Shown: positions 2,074-30,694 of the stretch, piece after piece
Numbering within the stretch: position 1 is the first letter of the stretch
How the letters are laid out: each line of letters opens with the position of its first letter
NCBI GenBank assembly: GCA_020853615.1
Contig: JADYYO010000049.1
Location: 1 to 38,690 of the forward strand
Direction of reading: 5' to 3'
Length of the DNA stretch: 38,690 bases
DNA from: Thermomicrobiales bacterium
GTDB lineage: Bacteria > Chloroflexota > Chloroflexia > Thermomicrobiales > UBA6265
Translations under genes and position numbers: made by a program
The notes under the pieces: model-generated
Databases searched by the model: none
The model's input: the letters and a program-made list of their open reading frames with translations, nothing else
Told to the model about the DNA's origin: nothing

Positions 2074-2571
2074 TCAGGTACCGGCCGGCCCGGCCGCGCC
2101 CGACTCGAGCCGAGCGATGATCTCCACGATTCCGGTTCGGGTCGCTAGCCCGACGATGTGGCGCGACTCGTCGATGACCGGGATCGGGTTGATTCGCTTC
2201 TGCAGCATCAGTGTCGCCAGTTCCGTCAGCGTCGCGATATCCCGAATGCTGATGACCGGCGACGACATCAGCTCACCGGCAGTCGTCGCGACCACCCGGC
2301 GCAGCTCCTCTTCGAACGGCGTGCCAGCATCGGCGACGATGATCGCGTCGAGGATGCTGATGACCGACGGCGCGTCGACTGTTGCCTCGCGCTGGATCAG
2401 ATCGGCTTCGGTCACGATGCCGATCAACTCGTCGTTGCGCAGGACTGGCACCCCGGGCACCCGATGCTCGACCATCATCCGCGCCAGCTCCGCGATGGTC
2501 GTATCGGGCGCGGCGACCGGCACTTCGCGCCGCATGACGTCTCGGACCGTGATCTCCCCGCGCTCCGTCAT
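2074..2571 (-). CDS. Two-CBS-domain protein
   Basis: The product has 165 aa and consists of a pair of CBS domains (about residues 12-60 and 98-155) joined by a 35-residue insert. Motifs are TVRDVMRREV then VPGVPVLRNDELIGIVTEADL in the first, and LMSSPVISI then PIPVIDESRHIVGLATR in the second. CBS pairs bind adenosine nucleotides and act as sensors. With no fused effector domain, the partner is unknown. Its ATG overlaps the TGA of nnrD (ATGA at 2568-2571), so translation is probably coupled. Because nnrD is ADP/ATP-dependent, an energy-sensing role is possible, but this is inference only. Confidence 0.92.
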   Translation of the reverse strand: MTERGEITVRDVMRREVPVAAPDTTIAELARMMVEHRVPGVPVLRNDELIGIVTEADLIQREATVDAPSVISILDAIIVADAGTPFEEELRRVVATTAGELMSSPVISIRDIATLTELATLMLQKRINPIPVIDESRHIVGLATRTGIVEIIARLESGAAGPAGT

Positions 2572-3557
2572 GACCGCGCCCCCTCCAGCGCGCCAAGCTC
2601 CTCGGCGATCGCGCGCGGGAGATCGCCAGCGACCACACCGAGCGTGCCATATCGTTCGCTCAGGCGCCGGGCCGCGCGAGCGCCGCTGTAGACCGCGAGC
2701 GAGGCCGCGTCGCGCGGCGAGAGCCCCTGCGCGAGGAAGGCGCCGATCGCCCCGCTAAGGACATCGCCACTCCCGGCTGTCGCTAGCGCCGGCGGCGTCT
2801 CGACGGCAGAGAGCGCCCCGTCGGGACTGGCGACAAGCGTCGGCGCGCCCTTCAGGACGACCGTCTGACCCCACCGTGCGGCCGCCTCGCTGGCGACCTT
2901 GGCCGCGTCGGCGGTGATCTCGCCCGCCTCGGCATCGACCAGCGATGCCATTTCGCCGGGATGCGGCGTCAGGACAAGCTGCTCGGGCGCGACACGCTCC
3001 CACCACTGCTCCTGCCCTGCCAGCCACCGGAGTGCGTCGGCATCGACCACAGCGGGCTTGCCCGAGCGGAATACCAAGCTCTGAACGGCCTCCGCTCCGC
3101 CCTTTCGCGGCGCACCGAATCCGATGCCACCCCGGGGCTTGCCGCCCCCGAAGAGCGCCGCAAGGAGCGCATGCGCGGCCTCATCGCTCCCCAACCCCGG
3201 GCCGATGACCATCGCCGTCGAGCGCTCGAGCCGCTCCGCGATCGCCTCGGCCGCTCGCGTGGCGACCGACGCGCTCTCCCCCTCGGGCAGGATGACGACG
3301 GTAATCTCCGGAACGAGCCCGACAATGATGGACGTCACGGAGCGGGGCAGCGCGGCGGAGACGATCCCCGCCCCGGATCGACCGGCGGCGGCGCAACAGA
3401 GGGCAGCCGCCCCCGCGTAGCCAGGCGAACCGGCGACGACGACGAGACCGCCGACGCCCCACTTGTGCGCGCCCGCCTCCCGTCGAGGCAGGACGCTTGC
3501 GGCCCATGCTTCCGTGATCTGCCGCGGCTCCGGTGAGCCGCCAATCTGGCGCGCCAA
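2568..3557 (-). CDS. nnrD: ADP-dependent (S)-NAD(P)H-hydrate dehydratase
   Basis: This enzyme repairs hydrated NADH/NADPH by dehydrating the S-epimer with ADP (or ATP), using a ribokinase-like fold. It has 329 aa and only the YjeF C-terminal domain; the epimerase (NnrE, YjeF N-terminal) domain often fused in bacteria is absent and must be elsewhere if present. Visible motifs are VIGPGLG (117-123), VVDADAL (170-176), LTPHPGE (196-202) and AGSGDVLSG (261-269), a variant of the canonical GTGDVL(A/S)G anion-hole motif. The start is TTG at 3557 with GAGGGAG just upstream, 10 bp after the acpS stop. It is part of the tatB-to-alr run. Confidence 0.92.
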   Translation of the reverse strand: MARQIGGSPEPRQITEAWAASVLPRREAGAHKWGVGGLVVVAGSPGYAGAAALCCAAAGRSGAGIVSAALPRSVTSIIVGLVPEITVVILPEGESASVATRAAEAIAERLERSTAMVIGPGLGSDEAAHALLAALFGGGKPRGGIGFGAPRKGGAEAVQSLVFRSGKPAVVDADALRWLAGQEQWWERVAPEQLVLTPHPGEMASLVDAEAGEITADAAKVASEAAARWGQTVVLKGAPTLVASPDGALSAVETPPALATAGSGDVLSGAIGAFLAQGLSPRDAASLAVYSGARAARRLSERYGTLGVVAGDLPRAIAEELGALEGARS

Positions 3558-23398: not shown

Positions 23399-24916
23399 TT
23401 ACGAGGAAGGCGCCTCGTAGCCGGCCTCCGCGAGAAGCTCGCGAGCGACGCCAGCTTCGTCCCAGGGACGCTTTTCGCGCCCCCAGATGATGCTCCCTTC
23501 GTGCCCCTTCCCGGCGAGGAGAACGCAGTCGCCGGGCCGCGCCAGGTCGAAGGCGAGCCGCAGTGCCTCGCGCCGCTCCGGCACCTGAAAGAGGTCTTCG
23601 CCGCGCGTCGCGCCCGCCTCTTCGGCGCCAGCCGCAATCTGCGCGATGATGGCGTCGGCATCTTCGTTGCGCGGGTCCTCGCTCGTCACGACCGTAATGT
23701 CGGCGAGCCGGGCGGAGACCGCGCCCTGCAGCGATCGCTTCTCCCGATCCCGCTCACCGGCGCTGCCGAAGACGGCGATGAGGCGGCCCGTGGGATGGAG
23801 CCCCCGCAGGAGGGTGAGCACCTTTCGCAGTGAATCGGGCGTATGGGCGTAGTCGACGACGACCGCAAACGGCTGCCCCGCGTCGACCCGCGCCATCCTG
23901 CCCGGGATCGGCGGGGCCATGGAGAGGGCCTCGGCGATGGTTGGGAGGTCGATTCCCGCCGCGAGGGCGACGCCCGCGGCGCAGAGCGCATTCGAGACGT
24001 TGAACGCGCCAATCAGCGGCAACTCAACCGCTGCCGCCCCATGCTCCCCCGATGCGATGCGGAACCGTGTGCCCGATGCGCTCGCCTGCACACCGACGGC
24101 CTGCAGATCGGCCCGGGCGTCCTGGGTGCTGTACCGCATGATCTCGGCTCCGGCCGCGAACGGCTCGATCGCCACCGCGCCGGGGTCGTCGGCATTGACG
24201 ACGACCACCCCCGATTCCGCCCCGACCCGCTCGCAAAGGATCGCCTTGGCTCGTCGGTAGCCCTCGACCGTCCCATGGAAATCGAGGTGCTCGTGAGTGA
24301 TGTTGGTGACCGCGCCGATGCGGAAGCGGACGGCATCGAGCCGGTGCATGGCCAGGCCGTGCGAGGTCGCTTCGAGAATGGCCCAGGAGACGCCATCGTC
24401 GGCCATCTGCCGCAGGTAGCGCTGGACGTCGCTCGATTCCGGCGTCGTCTGTCGCGAGGCGTGGCGATCTTCGCGCTCGCCGATGCGGATCGTCACCGTG
24501 CCGATCATCCCCGTCTTTTCACCGGCAGATCGCAGGATGTGGTCGACCAGGTAGGAGGTCGTCGTCTTGCCATCGGTCCCGGTAATGCCGATCACGCCGA
24601 GTTTGCGCGAAGGGTGTCCGAAAAACACGGCAGAGAGGGGCGCGAGCGCGGCCCGGCTGTCTGGCACGACGATCTGCGCCACCGGGAGGGGAGTCGGCTC
24701 CTCGACCAGCAGCGCCGCCGCGCCCCGGCGAACCGCGCCTTCGACAAAATCGTGGCCGTCGAAATCCGCGCCGCGCAGGGCGGCGAAGAGGTCGCCCGGA
24801 CCAACCTGGCGGGAGTCATAGGTGATCCCGGAGACGAGCGTGGCCGGGCTGCCAAGGAGCGAGGCGCCGGGAACCGCCTTGGCGAGCGCAGCGAGGCGGA
24901 CAGGCGAGACACTCAC
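23399..24916 (-). CDS. murE: UDP-MurNAc-tripeptide synthetase (MurE)
   Basis: It adds the third, diamino, residue of the peptidoglycan stem. The 505 aa have all three Mur-ligase domains: GITGTDGKTTTS (P-loop, 110-121), the carbamylated-lysine region YRRAKAIL with K224, GSAGERD (384-390), and LLAGKGHEG (467-474). The specificity segment is TSEDPRNED (411-419). DAP enzymes usually have DNPR and Lys enzymes DNPA, so EDPR keeps the Arg but does not settle the substrate; Lys, Orn and DAP all remain possible. The start is GTG at 24916, overlapping the FemAB-like stop (GTGA). The rest of the dcw cluster is not in the window. Confidence 0.94.
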   Translation of the reverse strand: MSVSPVRLAALAKAVPGASLLGSPATLVSGITYDSRQVGPGDLFAALRGADFDGHDFVEGAVRRGAAALLVEEPTPLPVAQIVVPDSRAALAPLSAVFFGHPSRKLGVIGITGTDGKTTTSYLVDHILRSAGEKTGMIGTVTIRIGEREDRHASRQTTPESSDVQRYLRQMADDGVSWAILEATSHGLAMHRLDAVRFRIGAVTNITHEHLDFHGTVEGYRRAKAILCERVGAESGVVVVNADDPGAVAIEPFAAGAEIMRYSTQDARADLQAVGVQASASGTRFRIASGEHGAAAVELPLIGAFNVSNALCAAGVALAAGIDLPTIAEALSMAPPIPGRMARVDAGQPFAVVVDYAHTPDSLRKVLTLLRGLHPTGRLIAVFGSAGERDREKRSLQGAVSARLADITVVTSEDPRNEDADAIIAQIAAGAEEAGATRGEDLFQVPERREALRLAFDLARPGDCVLLAGKGHEGSIIWGREKRPWDEAGVARELLAEAGYEAPSS

Positions 24917-25971
24917 GCCGCTCCCCCGCCCAGGGAGTAAACACGGCGCGCCAGAGAGGCAAGCAGCGGATGGTAGAGCCGCTCCAGTGGCGCCGGGTAG
25001 CGGAGGATCTCTCCGCCGAAGCGGGTCTTGAACTCGTACAGGCCGCGCCAGTCGCTGCCGCTCGTGCCGGCGATCCTCCCGCCATCCTCGACTCTGGTCG
25101 ATTCCGGATCTTCGGCGGGGATCCCCCAGAGATCGTAGGCGGCGCACCCGCGCTCTCGCGCCCAGCGCATCGCCTCGTACTGCAGGAGAAAGCCGGCGCC
25201 GTGCGCGCGATCCTTCGTCGACGAGGCGCCATACATGTAGATCGCCTCATCGCCAAATGCGACCGCCGCGACGGCCGCAACCGGCCTCCCCTCGATTTCG
25301 GCGAAGAGGAGAAGACCACGGTCCGCGAAGAGCCGCAGAAACTCGCCGTAGTAGTCGCGCGAGTGAATGCCGAATTCGTTGCGCGACGCCGTATCCTGCA
25401 TCAGGGCATAGAAGCCGTCGATCGAGGCGTCGTCGATGGCCGCCTCGCGGGTCAACACGCCCCGGCGCTGCGCCAGCCGAACGTTGTAGCGCGTCTTCTG
25501 GTGCATCTGCTTCAGCAGCTCATCGTCGCTGCCGAGCCGCACCTTGACCGTCCGTGCCGGCTGAATCGCCGCCGGACCCGGCGTCAGGCGCAGTCGCCGC
25601 GCAATGTCGTCATCGATTTCGGCGTCGTGCTCGACGATCACCGTCAGCGCCCGGCGACGGCGGGCAACGCGGTCGATCTCCCTCCAGAGCGCGACCGCCG
25701 CTTCCGGGTCGTTCTCGGGGAGTGCCGGGCCGCGCGGGATGTAGCCGATGCTGACGCCGGCTCGCGTGCGAAAGAGGATCTGGGCGAGCGCCGCGCCGCC
25801 CCTGGTCGCAACGGCGACGCGCTCGGGCTCCCAGCCGAAGCGCGATTTCAATGCGCCCCAATGCCACGACTGCAGAAGATGGCCGCCGGTTGCGCGGAGC
25901 GCGTCATCCCACGCCTCGGCATCGGCGGCCAGTCGGTCATCGGTGGCCTGCTCGCGGGCGCTCCTGATCAC
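24913..25971 (-). CDS. FemAB-like peptidoglycan interpeptide-bridge aminoacyltransferase (tRNA-dependent)
   Basis: The product has 352 aa and two tandem GNAT-like folds. The family hallmark is a Lys/Arg-rich segment, LLKQMHQKTRYNVRLAQRRG (152-171). GFLLQYEAMRWARERGCAAYDLWGIP and the C-terminal GLYEFKTRFGG are also typical. Relatives move an amino acid from aminoacyl-tRNA to the side chain of the third residue of lipid II. The start is GTG at 25971, overlapping the HEAT-gene stop (GTGA), and its end overlaps the start of murE. The coupling to murE supports a role on the same stem peptide. The amino acid added cannot be read from the sequence. Confidence 0.88.
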   Translation of the reverse strand: MIRSAREQATDDRLAADAEAWDDALRATGGHLLQSWHWGALKSRFGWEPERVAVATRGGAALAQILFRTRAGVSIGYIPRGPALPENDPEAAVALWREIDRVARRRRALTVIVEHDAEIDDDIARRLRLTPGPAAIQPARTVKVRLGSDDELLKQMHQKTRYNVRLAQRRGVLTREAAIDDASIDGFYALMQDTASRNEFGIHSRDYYGEFLRLFADRGLLLFAEIEGRPVAAVAAVAFGDEAIYMYGASSTKDRAHGAGFLLQYEAMRWARERGCAAYDLWGIPAEDPESTRVEDGGRIAGTSGSDWRGLYEFKTRFGGEILRYPAPLERLYHPLLASLARRVYSLGGGAA

Positions 25972-26915
25972 GCCGTCGTATCGAAGGGATCGAGCATGGT
26001 CTTCGCCTCGTCGAGCGAGGCCTCGATCAGCTCGAGATCGGCGTCGCCGGCGTCTTCGGCCAGCCGTTCGAGCGCCCGAATCGCGCCGCGGCCCCCAATC
26101 TGCCCAATCGCCGTGATTGCCGCGTGGCGGACCTCCGCGTCGTCGTCGAGGGCGGCATCCATCAGGGCCGGCAGGGCGTCTGCCGCTCCGAGCGCCCCGG
26201 CAGCGCGCGCCGCCTCGAACCGCATCTCGGCGTCGTCGGTCTCCAGTTCGGCCATGATCGTGGGCAACCAGTGGGATTGCAGACTGCGGCCCATCGCATA
26301 GATCGCGCTGCACTGCAGGCCGTGATCGCCTGAATCGAACGCGTCGTTGATCGCGGTCGAAATCTCCGGCTCGCCGCCGTAGGGGCCCAGCGCCTCGATC
26401 GCGCGCCGGTACACCGCATGGGCCGTATTCGGGTTCTGCACCACCCCGAGCAGGAGGACCCGCAAGGCATCGCCTGCCTCTCGATCGAGGCCGCCAGACG
26501 CCGCCATTTGCGAAAAACGCTCCAGCGCACTCGCGGCCTGCGCCCGCACATCGGGTGATGGATCCTCGACGAGGATCCGCCGCAAGCGATCGAGCAGGTC
26601 GGCCGACTCGTCCTCCCACAGACCGGCGACGGCGAGCTGCCGGACGACCGGAGACGCATCCTCGAGGGCGATGCGCAGGGCGCGGCGGAAGTTGACGTCG
26701 ACGCGCTCTTCCGAGAGCTCGTCGCAGCGACGCACGAGATCGGCGCGCGTCTCTTCCGGGATTGACGCCCAGGCCGCGGCAAGGGCCGCCGCCTCATCCC
26801 GGCTCAGGTCCGAGAGGCGCGAAACACGCGTGTGCGAGAGGTCGCCGTCGCGGAATGCCGCGATTGCGTCGACGAGCGACCGCGACGGCTCCTGAGGCTG
26901 GCGAGCGGGAGTCAC
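25968..26915 (-). CDS. HEAT-repeat protein
   Basis: The product has 315 aa, almost entirely helical repeats of the HEAT/PBS-lyase type. Examples are ALEDASPVVRQLAVAGLWED, ILVEDPSPDVRAQAASALER and ALDDDAEVRHAAITAIGQIG. The chain is very acidic. No signal peptide or membrane helix is present, so it is a cytosolic scaffold with no catalytic motif. The start is GTG at 26915 with GAGGAC upstream. It lies 11 bp after the 558-aa gene and overlaps the FemAB-like gene by GTGA, so it is probably made in step with both. Its partner is unknown. Confidence 0.9.
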   Translation of the reverse strand: MTPARQPQEPSRSLVDAIAAFRDGDLSHTRVSRLSDLSRDEAAALAAAWASIPEETRADLVRRCDELSEERVDVNFRRALRIALEDASPVVRQLAVAGLWEDESADLLDRLRRILVEDPSPDVRAQAASALERFSQMAASGGLDREAGDALRVLLLGVVQNPNTAHAVYRRAIEALGPYGGEPEISTAINDAFDSGDHGLQCSAIYAMGRSLQSHWLPTIMAELETDDAEMRFEAARAAGALGAADALPALMDAALDDDAEVRHAAITAIGQIGGRGAIRALERLAEDAGDADLELIEASLDEAKTMLDPFDTTA

Positions 26916-26926
26916 GTCTGTCCTCG

Positions 26927-28603
26927 CTACGGCGTCGAGCCCGGAACGTAGGTGTACGAATCGTCCGCATCCGGATCGCGGGAGAATGCCCCGGTGTCGT
27001 CGTAGTCGAGGATCGAGCGGAGCAGTGTCGGCGACATCGGTCGCTCAACGTTCACGCCGGCGAGCAGCGTTTCGAAATCGGCCGAGAAATTGCCCTCGCG
27101 CGCATCGCCGATCCGCTCGAAGACTGCCGCGACCACGGCCTCCGGGCGCCGGCGCGCCTTGTCGTCGAGCGGCTTCTCGTTCGCGAAGCCGCCGAAGCGG
27201 TCTTCTGTCAGGAGCTGCGACTCCTCGACCCCACAGGCGTAGGTCGTGGGGCGGAAGACGTAGCGCTGCGCGCGGCGCTCGTCCAACTCGAGAAGCTGCC
27301 CGCTCCGCGCCGCCTCCGGCAAATACTCGACCCGATAGTGGCCATCATTGTCGGTGCGCTCGATCGAGATGATCGCGCCGGGGACCAGGTTCTCGGTGTA
27401 GAAATCGTCGAGGCCGAGAATAAACCCGCCCCGGTTCGGCGTCGGGAAGCGCAGCTCGACCAGGTAGGTCGTGAACGACTGCGGGCACTCGAATGTCAAC
27501 ACTGCCGACTTCTGATTCGGCGTCACTGGCGCCGGCAGCAGCTCCTGCATCTGGGCGTCGTACGGCAGCAACCCGTGAATGAACTCATAGAAGGTCAGCG
27601 TATGATCGATCGATGACCGCGAGCGATGGGCTGGCTTCGCGGAGGTCTCATCGATGAGGAAGCGATAATCGGCGCCGATCTCGTTCAGCTTCCGGCGGGT
27701 GGTGCCGATCTGCGGCAGCCCGCTCGTGCTCCAGAAGCGCTGATTGGCCGTACCGACGAACTCGAACTCCCGGTGCTCGTTGGCAAGTCGGTAGTTGAGC
27801 GCGAAGCGCATCAGGTCGAAGTCGGGCGACCCCATGCGCACCCCGAGCACGTCCTGCACGAGGTCGTCGTCGGTGAGCGGCTGCTCCTTCTCCTGCATGT
27901 AGTCGCGGAGGCGGCGCAAATCGCCGCGGCTGAAGCGCGGGACGCGGTCCTCCATCAGCCACTGCTCGCCGAAGTTCGCCACCCGCGGGTCGGCGCCGAG
28001 GCGCTCGCGGATCGCCTGAGCAAGGTTGAGGTTATCGACCTCCGACACATCAGTCGGCGTGATCGCCTGTGTGACGATCGTTCGTGTAACCGCCGGCACG
28101 GCCTCTTCGACCAGCTCCGGCTCTGGCTCCGGCGCGACCTCGACTGCCGCTTCAGGGACCTCCAGCGCCTCCGGCTCGATGGCCACCTCCGCCAGCAAGT
28201 CGACCTCCGCCGGCTGCTGGCGCGGCCGCGGCCGGGTGGCAGGACGCTCCGGCTTTGGCATTGGCGTCAGGAATCGACTGGCAAACGAGTGTTTGTTTCC
28301 CGGCCGCACCGAGACCGGAGCGCGCCCCTCACGAGTCGTGCTGACCAACTGGTCTCCATCAACCGGCGTGACGCTGAAAATGTCCGGGTTCGCCGCAATC
28401 GCCGATTCCAGCTCGCCACGAACGTCCTTCTCGCCCTGGCTCTCGAAGAACGATGCCAACGACGACATCGACAGCGTGATGGGCGCGCTCAACGACATGA
28501 ACATCCCGCGCGCCAGCATCAGCGTGAGCACGCGCGACGCGAGCTCCTGCTGGCGTTGCGATCCGGATACCTTCGGGGCCATCGAAACCTGCTGCTCTAC
28601 CAC
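26927..28603 (-). CDS. Protein of unknown function with winged-helix-like repeats
   Basis: The product has 558 aa and no known family that I recognise. Two stretches share a pattern: residues about 35-92 (PITLSMSSLASFFES, then ANPDIFSVTPVDGDQLVSTT) and 224-294 (QPLTDDDLVQDVLG, then HREFEFVGTANQRFWSTSG). Each reads as helix, helix, then a strand hairpin, as in winged-helix folds. Between them (about 115-180) lies a Pro/Glu-rich linker. Residues 300-558 look like a mixed fold with many aromatic residues, without repeats. There is no signal peptide or membrane helix. The start is GTG at 28603 with GGGGAAGAG upstream; ATG 28582 is an alternative. It is the second gene of the minus run to murE. 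Confidence 0.8.
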   Translation of the reverse strand: MVEQQVSMAPKVSGSQRQQELASRVLTLMLARGMFMSLSAPITLSMSSLASFFESQGEKDVRGELESAIAANPDIFSVTPVDGDQLVSTTREGRAPVSVRPGNKHSFASRFLTPMPKPERPATRPRPRQQPAEVDLLAEVAIEPEALEVPEAAVEVAPEPEPELVEEAVPAVTRTIVTQAITPTDVSEVDNLNLAQAIRERLGADPRVANFGEQWLMEDRVPRFSRGDLRRLRDYMQEKEQPLTDDDLVQDVLGVRMGSPDFDLMRFALNYRLANEHREFEFVGTANQRFWSTSGLPQIGTTRRKLNEIGADYRFLIDETSAKPAHRSRSSIDHTLTFYEFIHGLLPYDAQMQELLPAPVTPNQKSAVLTFECPQSFTTYLVELRFPTPNRGGFILGLDDFYTENLVPGAIISIERTDNDGHYRVEYLPEAARSGQLLELDERRAQRYVFRPTTYACGVEESQLLTEDRFGGFANEKPLDDKARRRPEAVVAAVFERIGDAREGNFSADFETLLAGVNVERPMSPTLLRSILDYDDTGAFSRDPDADDSYTYVPGSTP

Positions 28604-28717
28604 TTCGCGCTCTTCCCCCGGGCAGTGTGATACCGCGAGTCATGCGGACTCTCGATCATCAAAACGACTGCTTCTTGCTCGTGCGCTCGCGCTTGCCGCG
28701 GCCCCGAGATCGCCGGC

Positions 28718-28903
28718 TCACGATGACGCTTCTGGTGCCCCTTCCAGCTCATGCGTCGGTGCCAACTGCCGCCGGAGCACATCGATCAACTGCTGTGTGG
28801 TGACCGGCTGCGGTGCATTGCGCAGAAAATTCATCAGATACGCGATATCTTCGTCATTGAGATGAACCTGTCCCGGTTCGCCGGTGGCCTCTGGCGGGGT
28901 CAT
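28718..28903 (-). CDS. Small protein (61 aa) related to part of its 558-aa neighbour
   Basis: From ATG 28903 it has 61 aa, beginning MTPPEATGEPGQ. GGAGG lies just before the start, slightly close at 4 nt. Residues about 15-48 (EDIAYLMNFLRNAPQPVTTQQ, then LIDVLRRQL) are a predicted pair of helices. They align without gaps, except one residue, with residues 224-257 of the 558-aa protein: the Asp, the QP.T pair and DVL are shared. It is upstream of that gene with a 114-bp gap on the same strand. Its own promoter is unclear; ATGATA/CGCCAA at 28965-28995 (TTGGCG-N19-TATCAT on the minus strand) is a weak candidate. Confidence 0.7.
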   Translation of the reverse strand: MTPPEATGEPGQVHLNDEDIAYLMNFLRNAPQPVTTQQLIDVLRRQLAPTHELEGAPEASS

Positions 28904-29079: not shown

Positions 29080-29152
29080 GCGCCCGTAGCTCAGCGGATA
29101 GAGCGCTTGCCTCCGGAGCAAGAGGCCAGAGGTTCGAGTCCTCTCGGGCGTA
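29080..29152 (+). tRNA. tRNA-Arg (anticodon CCG)
   Basis: A complete cloverleaf of 73 nt is visible. The acceptor GCGCCCG pairs with CGGGCGT (the first pair is G-U) and the discriminator is A. The D arm is GCTC/GAGC, and the anticodon stem CTTGC/GCAAG holds the loop CTCCGGA with CCG. The T arm is AGAGG-TTCGAGT-CCTCT. It decodes CGG, a codon in common use in this high-GC genome. CCA is not encoded. It stands alone, directly followed by a strong terminator. Confidence 0.97.
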
Positions 29153-29181
29153 CCCCGTAGTCGTAGAGTCCGACATGGTGA

Positions 29182-29234: not shown

Positions 29235-29412
29235 GTACGTACACGTTGTACGTTGACGCTTGACGGACATCCAGGCGTCGATTGGCAACACGAGCCGCGA
29301 CCATGCCCCACCGCCCTCCCTGCAAGCGGGTGCCGCGCTACCCCGACGTTTTCTGCTCCGGCCGCGCCGGCGCACCTACTGCTTGCCGCCGTGGAGTTCA
29401 GGAGGGTTACGG

Positions 29413-30045
29413 GTGGTCTTTCGAAAAGACAGTAAGGTCGATGCGTTCCAGCGCCAGATCAGCGCCCTTCGCCAGCAACTCGGTGGCGATCCGGGCGATT
29501 ATCCGTACGAGCCGGTCGAGCGCCCGCGCTCGCCGACATCGGACGATCCCTATCTGAAGGACCTCCCCGACCTCGATCTCATCCGCTCTGCGCCAGTAAC
29601 GCCGCGCGAACTGGAGGTCGTGCCAGAGCCGGCGCATCGGCCTGCATCGCCCGCTGTTCCCGCGGCCGATGCGCTTACCAGCGTCATCGCCCACACGACG
29701 ACCTGGAAGGGAAATCTCGAATCGAGCGGGTCACTCCACGTCCACGGCCACGTCGAGGGCTCGCTGACCGCGCGGGACGATGTTTACATCGCCGAGGAGG
29801 CGGAGATCGACGCGGCAATCACCGCCACGAACGTGACGATCGCCGGCCAGGTGCGCGGGTCGATCCGGTGTATGAGCCGCTTCGAGGTGCTGCCGCGTGG
29901 CCGCTTCTCCGGGGATGTGCAGGCGCCGGTGATCGTGGTGCACGACGGCGCCGTTCTCGCCGCCGATGTCTCCATGGCCCAGCCGGGTGACTCGCGCGCT
30001 CCGCTCCATACTCCCGCCGAACGCCTGGCCCGCGGTGGCGACTGA
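29413..30045 (+). CDS. Bactofilin-family protein (first copy)
   Basis: The product has 210 aa. Residues about 88-188 form the bactofilin (DUF583) beta-helix, with short repeats such as GSLHVHGHVEGSL, DDVYIAEEAEIDAAI and NVTIAGQVRGSI. Bactofilins polymerise without nucleotide and scaffold cell-shape or wall enzymes. The first 85 residues are a charged, Pro-rich arm starting VVFRKDSKVDAFQRQISAL, possibly for membrane or partner contact. The start is GTG at 29413 with GGAGGG at 29401-29406. A second bactofilin follows after 82 bp. Confidence 0.88.
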   Translation: MVFRKDSKVDAFQRQISALRQQLGGDPGDYPYEPVERPRSPTSDDPYLKDLPDLDLIRSAPVTPRELEVVPEPAHRPASPAVPAADALTSVIAHTTTWKGNLESSGSLHVHGHVEGSLTARDDVYIAEEAEIDAAITATNVTIAGQVRGSIRCMSRFEVLPRGRFSGDVQAPVIVVHDGAVLAADVSMAQPGDSRAPLHTPAERLARGGD

Positions 30046-30127
30046 ATCGATCTTCGCAATCGCCCCGCGACGACGGTATCAGGCGGCGGCCGCAACCCAA
30101 CGCGGCACGACGCGCGAGGAGACTCAC

Positions 30128-30694
30128 ATGCGCGATCTCTCGGCGAGCGAATTCGATTGGGACGGTGAAGCGGCGGCGTCCTTCGAGGCCGCGAGCCTCA
30201 TCGACCGGCACTCGGCATTCGACGGCAACTTTCAGTCCCAGAAGGATCTGCGGATCGAAGGCGACGTGAAAGGGACCATCTCCTGCGATGGCACGCTCTT
30301 CGTCGCCGAAGGGGCAACCGTCGCGGCGACTGTCGAGGCCGAGCATATCAGCGTCGCCGGCGATTTGACCGGCGAGGTTCGGTGCCGCGGCCGGCTGCAG
30401 ATCATGCCGAGCGGACGCGTTCGCGCCAGCGTCTCGACGGCAACACTCGTCATTCAGGAGGGAGCCATTTACGAGGGGCAACTCGAAATGGCCGGCATCG
30501 AGCGCATGACACCCCGCCCGCTTCGCGCTCGGCAGGGGGGGCCGGCGCCAGCGGTCGACGTGGCCGCGACGGAACGCGCATCCGGCACCAGCATGACGTT
30601 CATTCGTCGCCTCGGAAGTCCCGAAGCGCCATGGGAAGGGCCGGGAAACGGCGCCGAGGGGGGCGACGACGCTCCAGGCGATCCGGCGGGATAA
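30128..30694 (+). CDS. Bactofilin-family protein (second copy)
   Basis: The product has 188 aa. The beta-helix domain is about residues 24-125 (SQKDLRIEGDVKGTISCDGT, then HISVAGDLTGEVRCRGRLQI). The N-terminal arm is short and acidic, unlike the first copy. The C-terminal 60 residues are Pro/Gly/Glu-rich and disordered. GAGGAG at 30116-30121 sets ATG 30128. The two copies have different flanks, so they probably form a mixed polymer or have separate partners rather than being a recent duplication. Confidence 0.88.
   Translation: MRDLSASEFDWDGEAAASFEAASLIDRHSAFDGNFQSQKDLRIEGDVKGTISCDGTLFVAEGATVAATVEAEHISVAGDLTGEVRCRGRLQIMPSGRVRASVSTATLVIQEGAIYEGQLEMAGIERMTPRPLRARQGGPAPAVDVAATERASGTSMTFIRRLGSPEAPWEGPGNGAEGGDDAPGDPAG

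Follow-up and report, generated by a model that had tools for sequence, protein, structure and literature searches.

A two-gene protein of Chloroflexota with a predicted B3-like domain, whose small member matches the N-terminus of a fused homologue

To our knowledge, the bacterial B3-like domains known so far come from restriction enzymes. Such a domain was described in BfiI (PMC4081073), and in CglI and NgoAVII the B3 domains were shown to bind the target DNA (PMC4267653). A large positive surface is characteristic of B3 domains, which have C-arm motifs such as WPNNKSR (PMC9391945). A transferred restriction enzyme has been suggested as a possible ancestor of the plant B3 domain, with no further evidence noted there (PMC2688026). 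In a literature search, no paper naming both Chloroflexi and a B3 domain was found. Here a pair of adjacent genes is analyzed in a 38,690-nt stretch of DNA (the window) from a Thermomicrobiales bacterium of the phylum Chloroflexota, the larger of which encodes a predicted B3-like fold flanked by winged helices.

The pair and the gene that follows it are arranged as listed here.
28718..28903, minus strand: small gene, 61 aa, a stand-alone N-terminal helical hairpin (alpha1-alpha2 of a predicted winged helix)
26927..28603, minus strand: large gene, 558 aa, a core protein of the class, assigned to no known family
25968..26915, minus strand: HEAT-repeat protein (PF13646, E 2.4e-24), 11 nt after the large gene and in the same direction

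An ORF check placed both genes of the pair on the minus strand at the positions given in the first-pass annotation; the interval 28603-28718, under which that annotation had filed its observation, is the gap between the two ORFs. Promoter- or terminator-like sites were sought near the pair and none was found. Downstream of the pair and in the same orientation lie HEAT-repeat, FemAB-like and murE genes (23399-26915). On the other side, a tRNA-Arg (CCG) gene (29080-29154) is divergent from the small gene and about 180 nt upstream of it, and two adjacent ORFs at 29260-30694 resemble tandem bactofilins by eye. A locus comparison found the HEAT-repeat gene beside the large gene elsewhere in the class too, at several loci (clusters 0 and 2). 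It had been suggested from the window alone that the pair forms a DNA-binding or adaptor system dedicated to cell-wall synthesis, and in the window, as in several families of its class, HEAT, FemAB and murE genes do come after the pair, but the pair-HEAT-(FemAB)-murE order is lost in L112, L113 and L116 and in the three second-class loci compared. The tie to wall synthesis is thus weak and a dedicated role in it very improbable, while the idea of DNA binding is still plausible, mainly because of the B3-like domain, which the first reading had not seen.

Within the window's class, the large protein was recovered from 148 of 158 genomes and from all 93 near-complete ones. A second class of the phylum has its homologues as one-piece proteins some 530 aa long, and this fused form was present in 98 of the 103 near-complete genomes sampled there; it was lacking from many other families in a search across the phylum. 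The small/large pair gave no significant match to Pfam, NCBIfam, PHROGs, PADLOC or PDB sequences, and no member of the large/fused family matched any Pfam family. No member was found in phage, plasmid or IMG/VR collections, and Foldseek against viral structures gave no match at E <= 0.001. A protein that is nearly universal in two large bacterial classes, and for which Pfam, NCBIfam, PHROGs and PADLOC have no entry, probably fills a gap in what is known of their basic biology.

Two genomes encode the entire module as the N-terminal portion of a DNA methyltransferase.
L147, 5775-11984, plus strand: 2070 aa, module with Eco57I (type IIG-like) and TaqI_C
L148, 8185-10824, minus strand: 880 aa, module with N6_Mtase

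L148 also carries another partial member (2178-3554), near specificity-subunit, methylase and DinG-like helicase genes. The two fusions, one to a type IIG-like and the other to a type I-like methyltransferase, would fit a part in restriction or phage defence, and in carrying the whole module at the N-terminus they are like type IIG restriction enzyme-methyltransferases. The window pair, in contrast, has no methyltransferase, target-recognition (TRD) or nuclease domain by Pfam, NCBIfam or PADLOC match. Proteins of the chromosomal form occur in almost all genomes of two classes, carry neither nuclease nor methyltransferase domains and were not found in the phage, plasmid and viral collections, so that a defence system is quite an improbable explanation.

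The small ORF lies directly ahead of the large gene, in the same direction, in all 62 genomes whose loci hold the upstream sequence, in agreement with the neighbourhood that the first-pass annotation had proposed to check. It was detected by profile in 60 of these (in L093 only at E 0.03) and by reading ORFs in L088 and L089; L013/L038, a single genome whose contig starts inside the gene, was left out of the count. When the class was searched with the window's small protein, none of the matches listed lay away from a large gene at E below 0.05. Many members show a 4-nt overlap of the two genes. Furthermore, pN/pS of the small gene is about 0.1-0.2 in close pairs, and the small ORF therefore encodes a protein under selection.

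Attention had been drawn to the pair by a shared pattern: the small protein contains EDIAYLMNFLRNAPQPVTTQQ followed by LIDVLRRQL, and the large protein has QPLTDDDLVQDVL at residues 241-253. Compared directly, the two proteins give a weak Smith-Waterman score of 40. Shuffled sequences reach it in 6.6% of cases when the target is the whole large protein and in 0.1% when it is the chosen segment, and such a comparison is too weak by itself to serve as proof. Profile comparison by hhalign, built on 54 small and 55 large homologues, placed the small family on residues 216-256 of the large protein and nowhere else in it (24.5% against the full profile, 65-71% against segments, pairwise E 4e-5 to 8e-4), with all other tiles and the reversed controls at 2% or less. 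A second copy that had been claimed near residues 35-92 showed no detectable similarity in pairwise or profile comparison (1.5-2%), although the structure model does contain a winged helix there. The claim of a repeat accordingly stands for residues 216-256 and fails for residues 35-92. The small protein is also no winged-helix copy: its conserved core of 38 residues, like the homologous part of the fused model, comprises only the first two helices of a winged helix and does not hold three helices and a beta wing in one chain.

The nearest relative of the small protein is the N-terminus of the fused homologue rather than a unit of its neighbor. The homologous stretch is located as follows.
28757..28870, minus strand: residues 12-49 of the small protein, homologous to residues 13-50 of the fused protein

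The small family matches the full fused profile at 87.7% (E 3.4e-6) and its N-terminal domain at 95.6% (pairwise E 1.2e-8) in hhalign, while the large protein matches the fused protein over its length at 100% (E 3.9e-46). In a separate comparison, residues 186-222 of the large protein match fused residues 138-183 at 98%. These profile comparisons demonstrate homology of the small protein with the fused N-terminus and of the large protein with the remainder. A tree built on the shared region groups every split form in one clade (100/99); the closest rows outside this clade, L153 and L154, are fused forms. Because the split forms make a single clade beside fused forms, one gene fission is the simplest reading and likely gave the split form. 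As judged from sequence, the small gene is the broken-off front end of the ancestral gene of its large neighbor. The pattern first noticed between the two proteins is real, and it is explained by a split gene and not by a small winged-helix copy; residues 216-256 were picked out because they are the first half of the neighboring winged helix 2, likely a tandem relative. An alternative would give the small protein no structural role and make it an independent regulator of the large gene or its leader peptide. This draws on the very short ORF just upstream, often overlapping the large gene's start by 4 nt, but it is improbable, since the small protein sequence is kept by selection and equals the N-terminus of the fused homologue, with the fission at that point.

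Confident structure models of the large and fused proteins were obtained, with mean pLDDT values of 87.3 and 89.1, respectively. The large protein is divided by its model and by profile comparisons into the parts listed here.
28319..28558, minus strand: winged helix 1, residues 16-95 (AF2 model, block pLDDT mostly 94-98)
28064..28297, minus strand: predicted disordered linker, residues ~103-180 (pLDDT ~37-52 over 101-180)
27938..28048, minus strand: orphan helix and beta hairpin, residues 186-222 (in the model H191-204, E208-211, E214-217)
27710..27937, minus strand: winged helix 2, residues 223-298 (model and profiles), whose first half is the segment of the first reading
27314..27628, minus strand: B3-like pseudobarrel, residues 326-430 (Foldseek on two independent models; weak plant B3 profile match)
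27413..27454, minus strand: conserved loop R(Y/F)PTxNRGG, residues 384-397, at the position of the DNA-contacting C-arm loop of B3
26936..27223, minus strand: C-terminal winged helix 3, residues 461-556 (AF2 model and profile comparison)

Winged-helix units, as the first reading had proposed in part, are thus predicted in the large protein (residues 16-89, 226-293 and 467-552 of the model), all three with the helix-strand-helix-helix-wing order. Their fold is like that of tandem winged-helix proteins such as ScpB, the Cdt1 C-terminal domain and RpoE, but they share no sequence membership with these, and one winged helix here appears to be split between two genes. Tandem winged helices, a HEAT neighbor and weak structural matches to ScpB could suggest a stand-in for this condensin subunit; however, a normal ScpB gene is present in 11 of the 12 genomes tested, the window's own included, and no member of the large/fused family matches PF04079 (ScpB). 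With a separate ScpB gene present, the stand-in is mostly refuted and hardly credible.

The fused model shows how the split winged helix may have been built. It contains helices like those of the small protein (H18-31, H37-62), then strands at 78-122, then H144-165, E169-172 and E175-178, and then a tail as in the large protein, so that two early helices and a later helix with hairpin give the winged-helix order with an insert. The insert appears SH3-like by eye, a label taken from the strands alone. A profile stitched from fused residues 12-50 and 150-183 was collinear with winged helix 2 over about 54-62 columns (84-94%), whereas in a control stitched in swapped order one half only aligned; the correct order does not always beat the swapped control, and because their scores overlap the support from stitching is moderate. 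Residues 186-222 of the large protein would then be a third helix and wing without a partner, and are proposed as the docking site of the small protein.

In Foldseek searches with both models, the best solved matches of this domain (residues 326-430 of the large protein) were the plant B3 domains FUS3, VAL1, NGA1 and TEM1 (probability 1.00, TM 0.61-0.70 by target), and the B3 domains of the restriction enzymes UbaLAI, LlaJI and NgoAVII ranked lower; the E-values are modest, the best being 1.8e-3. The predicted domain has the B3 pseudobarrel fold with two helices in both models. Four plant B3 sequences were weakly similar to the B3 profiles, at 60.5% (E 8e-5) to that of the fused form and, in the same register, with E 0.033 to that of the split form. 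Pfam B3 (PF02362) was over its cut-off in none of 18 genomes, and the domain is therefore called B3-like and not a PF02362 member. Residues R385, P387, N390, R391, G392, G393 and G397 of the loop are kept in 91-96% of 55 members.

The likeness to plant B3 domains (FUS3, VAL1, NGA1, TEM1, ARF1) lies in the predicted fold, with TM up to 0.70 by target and an rmsd of about 3 A, and in a conserved loop where the C-arm loop sits, whereas the window domain is bacterial, lies between winged helices, is acidic overall in the split form and has no Pfam B3 match. With the restriction-enzyme B3-like domains (UbaLAI, NgoAVII/CglI, LlaJI, BfiI, EcoRII) it shares a bacterial origin, the lower-ranked structural matches and the joining of two family members to DNA methyltransferases; unlike those, the window proteins have no nuclease and are encoded by a chromosomal core gene, not by a patchy defence gene. 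A B3-like protein that is chromosomal and not part of a restriction enzyme gives a further lead for the search into the origin of plant B3.

Based on these comparisons, a model is proposed in which the ancestral chain would have run from the hairpin (alpha1-alpha2) through the SH3-like insert, alpha3 plus wing, winged helix 2 and B3 to winged helix 3. In the window's lineage a break would have occurred after alpha2; the SH3-like insert would have disappeared, and the large gene would have gained a new winged helix and a linker at its front. The small subunit would dock on the orphan alpha3-wing (residues 186-222) and complete a winged helix in trans, and the assembled protein would read DNA through the B3 loop and the winged helices as a lineage-wide transcription or chromosome factor.

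The split-form B3-like domain has a median net charge of -6, which counts against DNA binding, with the loop at +2 and the fused-form domain at +5. A scaffold for proteins or RNA polymerase, in which the B3 and winged-helix folds were reused and DNA binding lost, would account for the acidity of most domains (median charge -36 for the whole protein, -6 for B3, -6 for winged helix 3) and for weak structural matches to polymerase-associated winged helices, e.g. RpoE-RpoC at probability 0.47. Yet one of the best conserved parts is the C-arm-like loop, in which two arginines and an asparagine are kept, the fused-form B3 is basic and relatives are fused to DNA methyltransferases, so a scaffold is considered possible but rather unlikely. 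The preferred reading, held with somewhat better than even confidence, is a two-gene, multidomain, probably DNA-binding protein whose small subunit completes a winged helix in trans and which acts as a lineage-wide factor; the pair would bind DNA and function as a global factor. More tentatively, it may represent an undescribed core DNA-binding factor of two Chloroflexota classes, with a B3-like domain outside restriction enzymes and a winged helix cut by fission and completed in trans by a subunit of about 45-60 aa. If so, the plant B3 domain would have a candidate bacterial relative in a housekeeping protein, and the small subunit would be a clean case of a domain split by gene fission.

Some families have only the front half of the fused protein (hairpin, SH3-like part and winged helix 2) as proteins of 251-297 aa, and the B3 part was not found near these four loci.
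L150, 3787-4677: front-half-only protein
L151, 4568-5404: front-half-only protein
L152, 4637-5389: front-half-only protein
L155, 4617-5414: front-half-only protein

In nearly all second-class loci inspected, a conserved gene of about 140 aa, assigned to no known family, follows the fused gene, as in the loci listed here and others.
L099, 3500-3940: ~140-aa gene
L156, 9615-10055: ~140-aa gene
L153, 3610-4035: ~140-aa gene

A derivation of winged helix 1 from this partner gene was considered and rejected, with no similarity at 1%. The partner carries the motif TPFHIDxxWW...IDWVDPxTAEV...NGNxPLT, often overlaps the fused gene by 4 nt and has weak HTH similarity.
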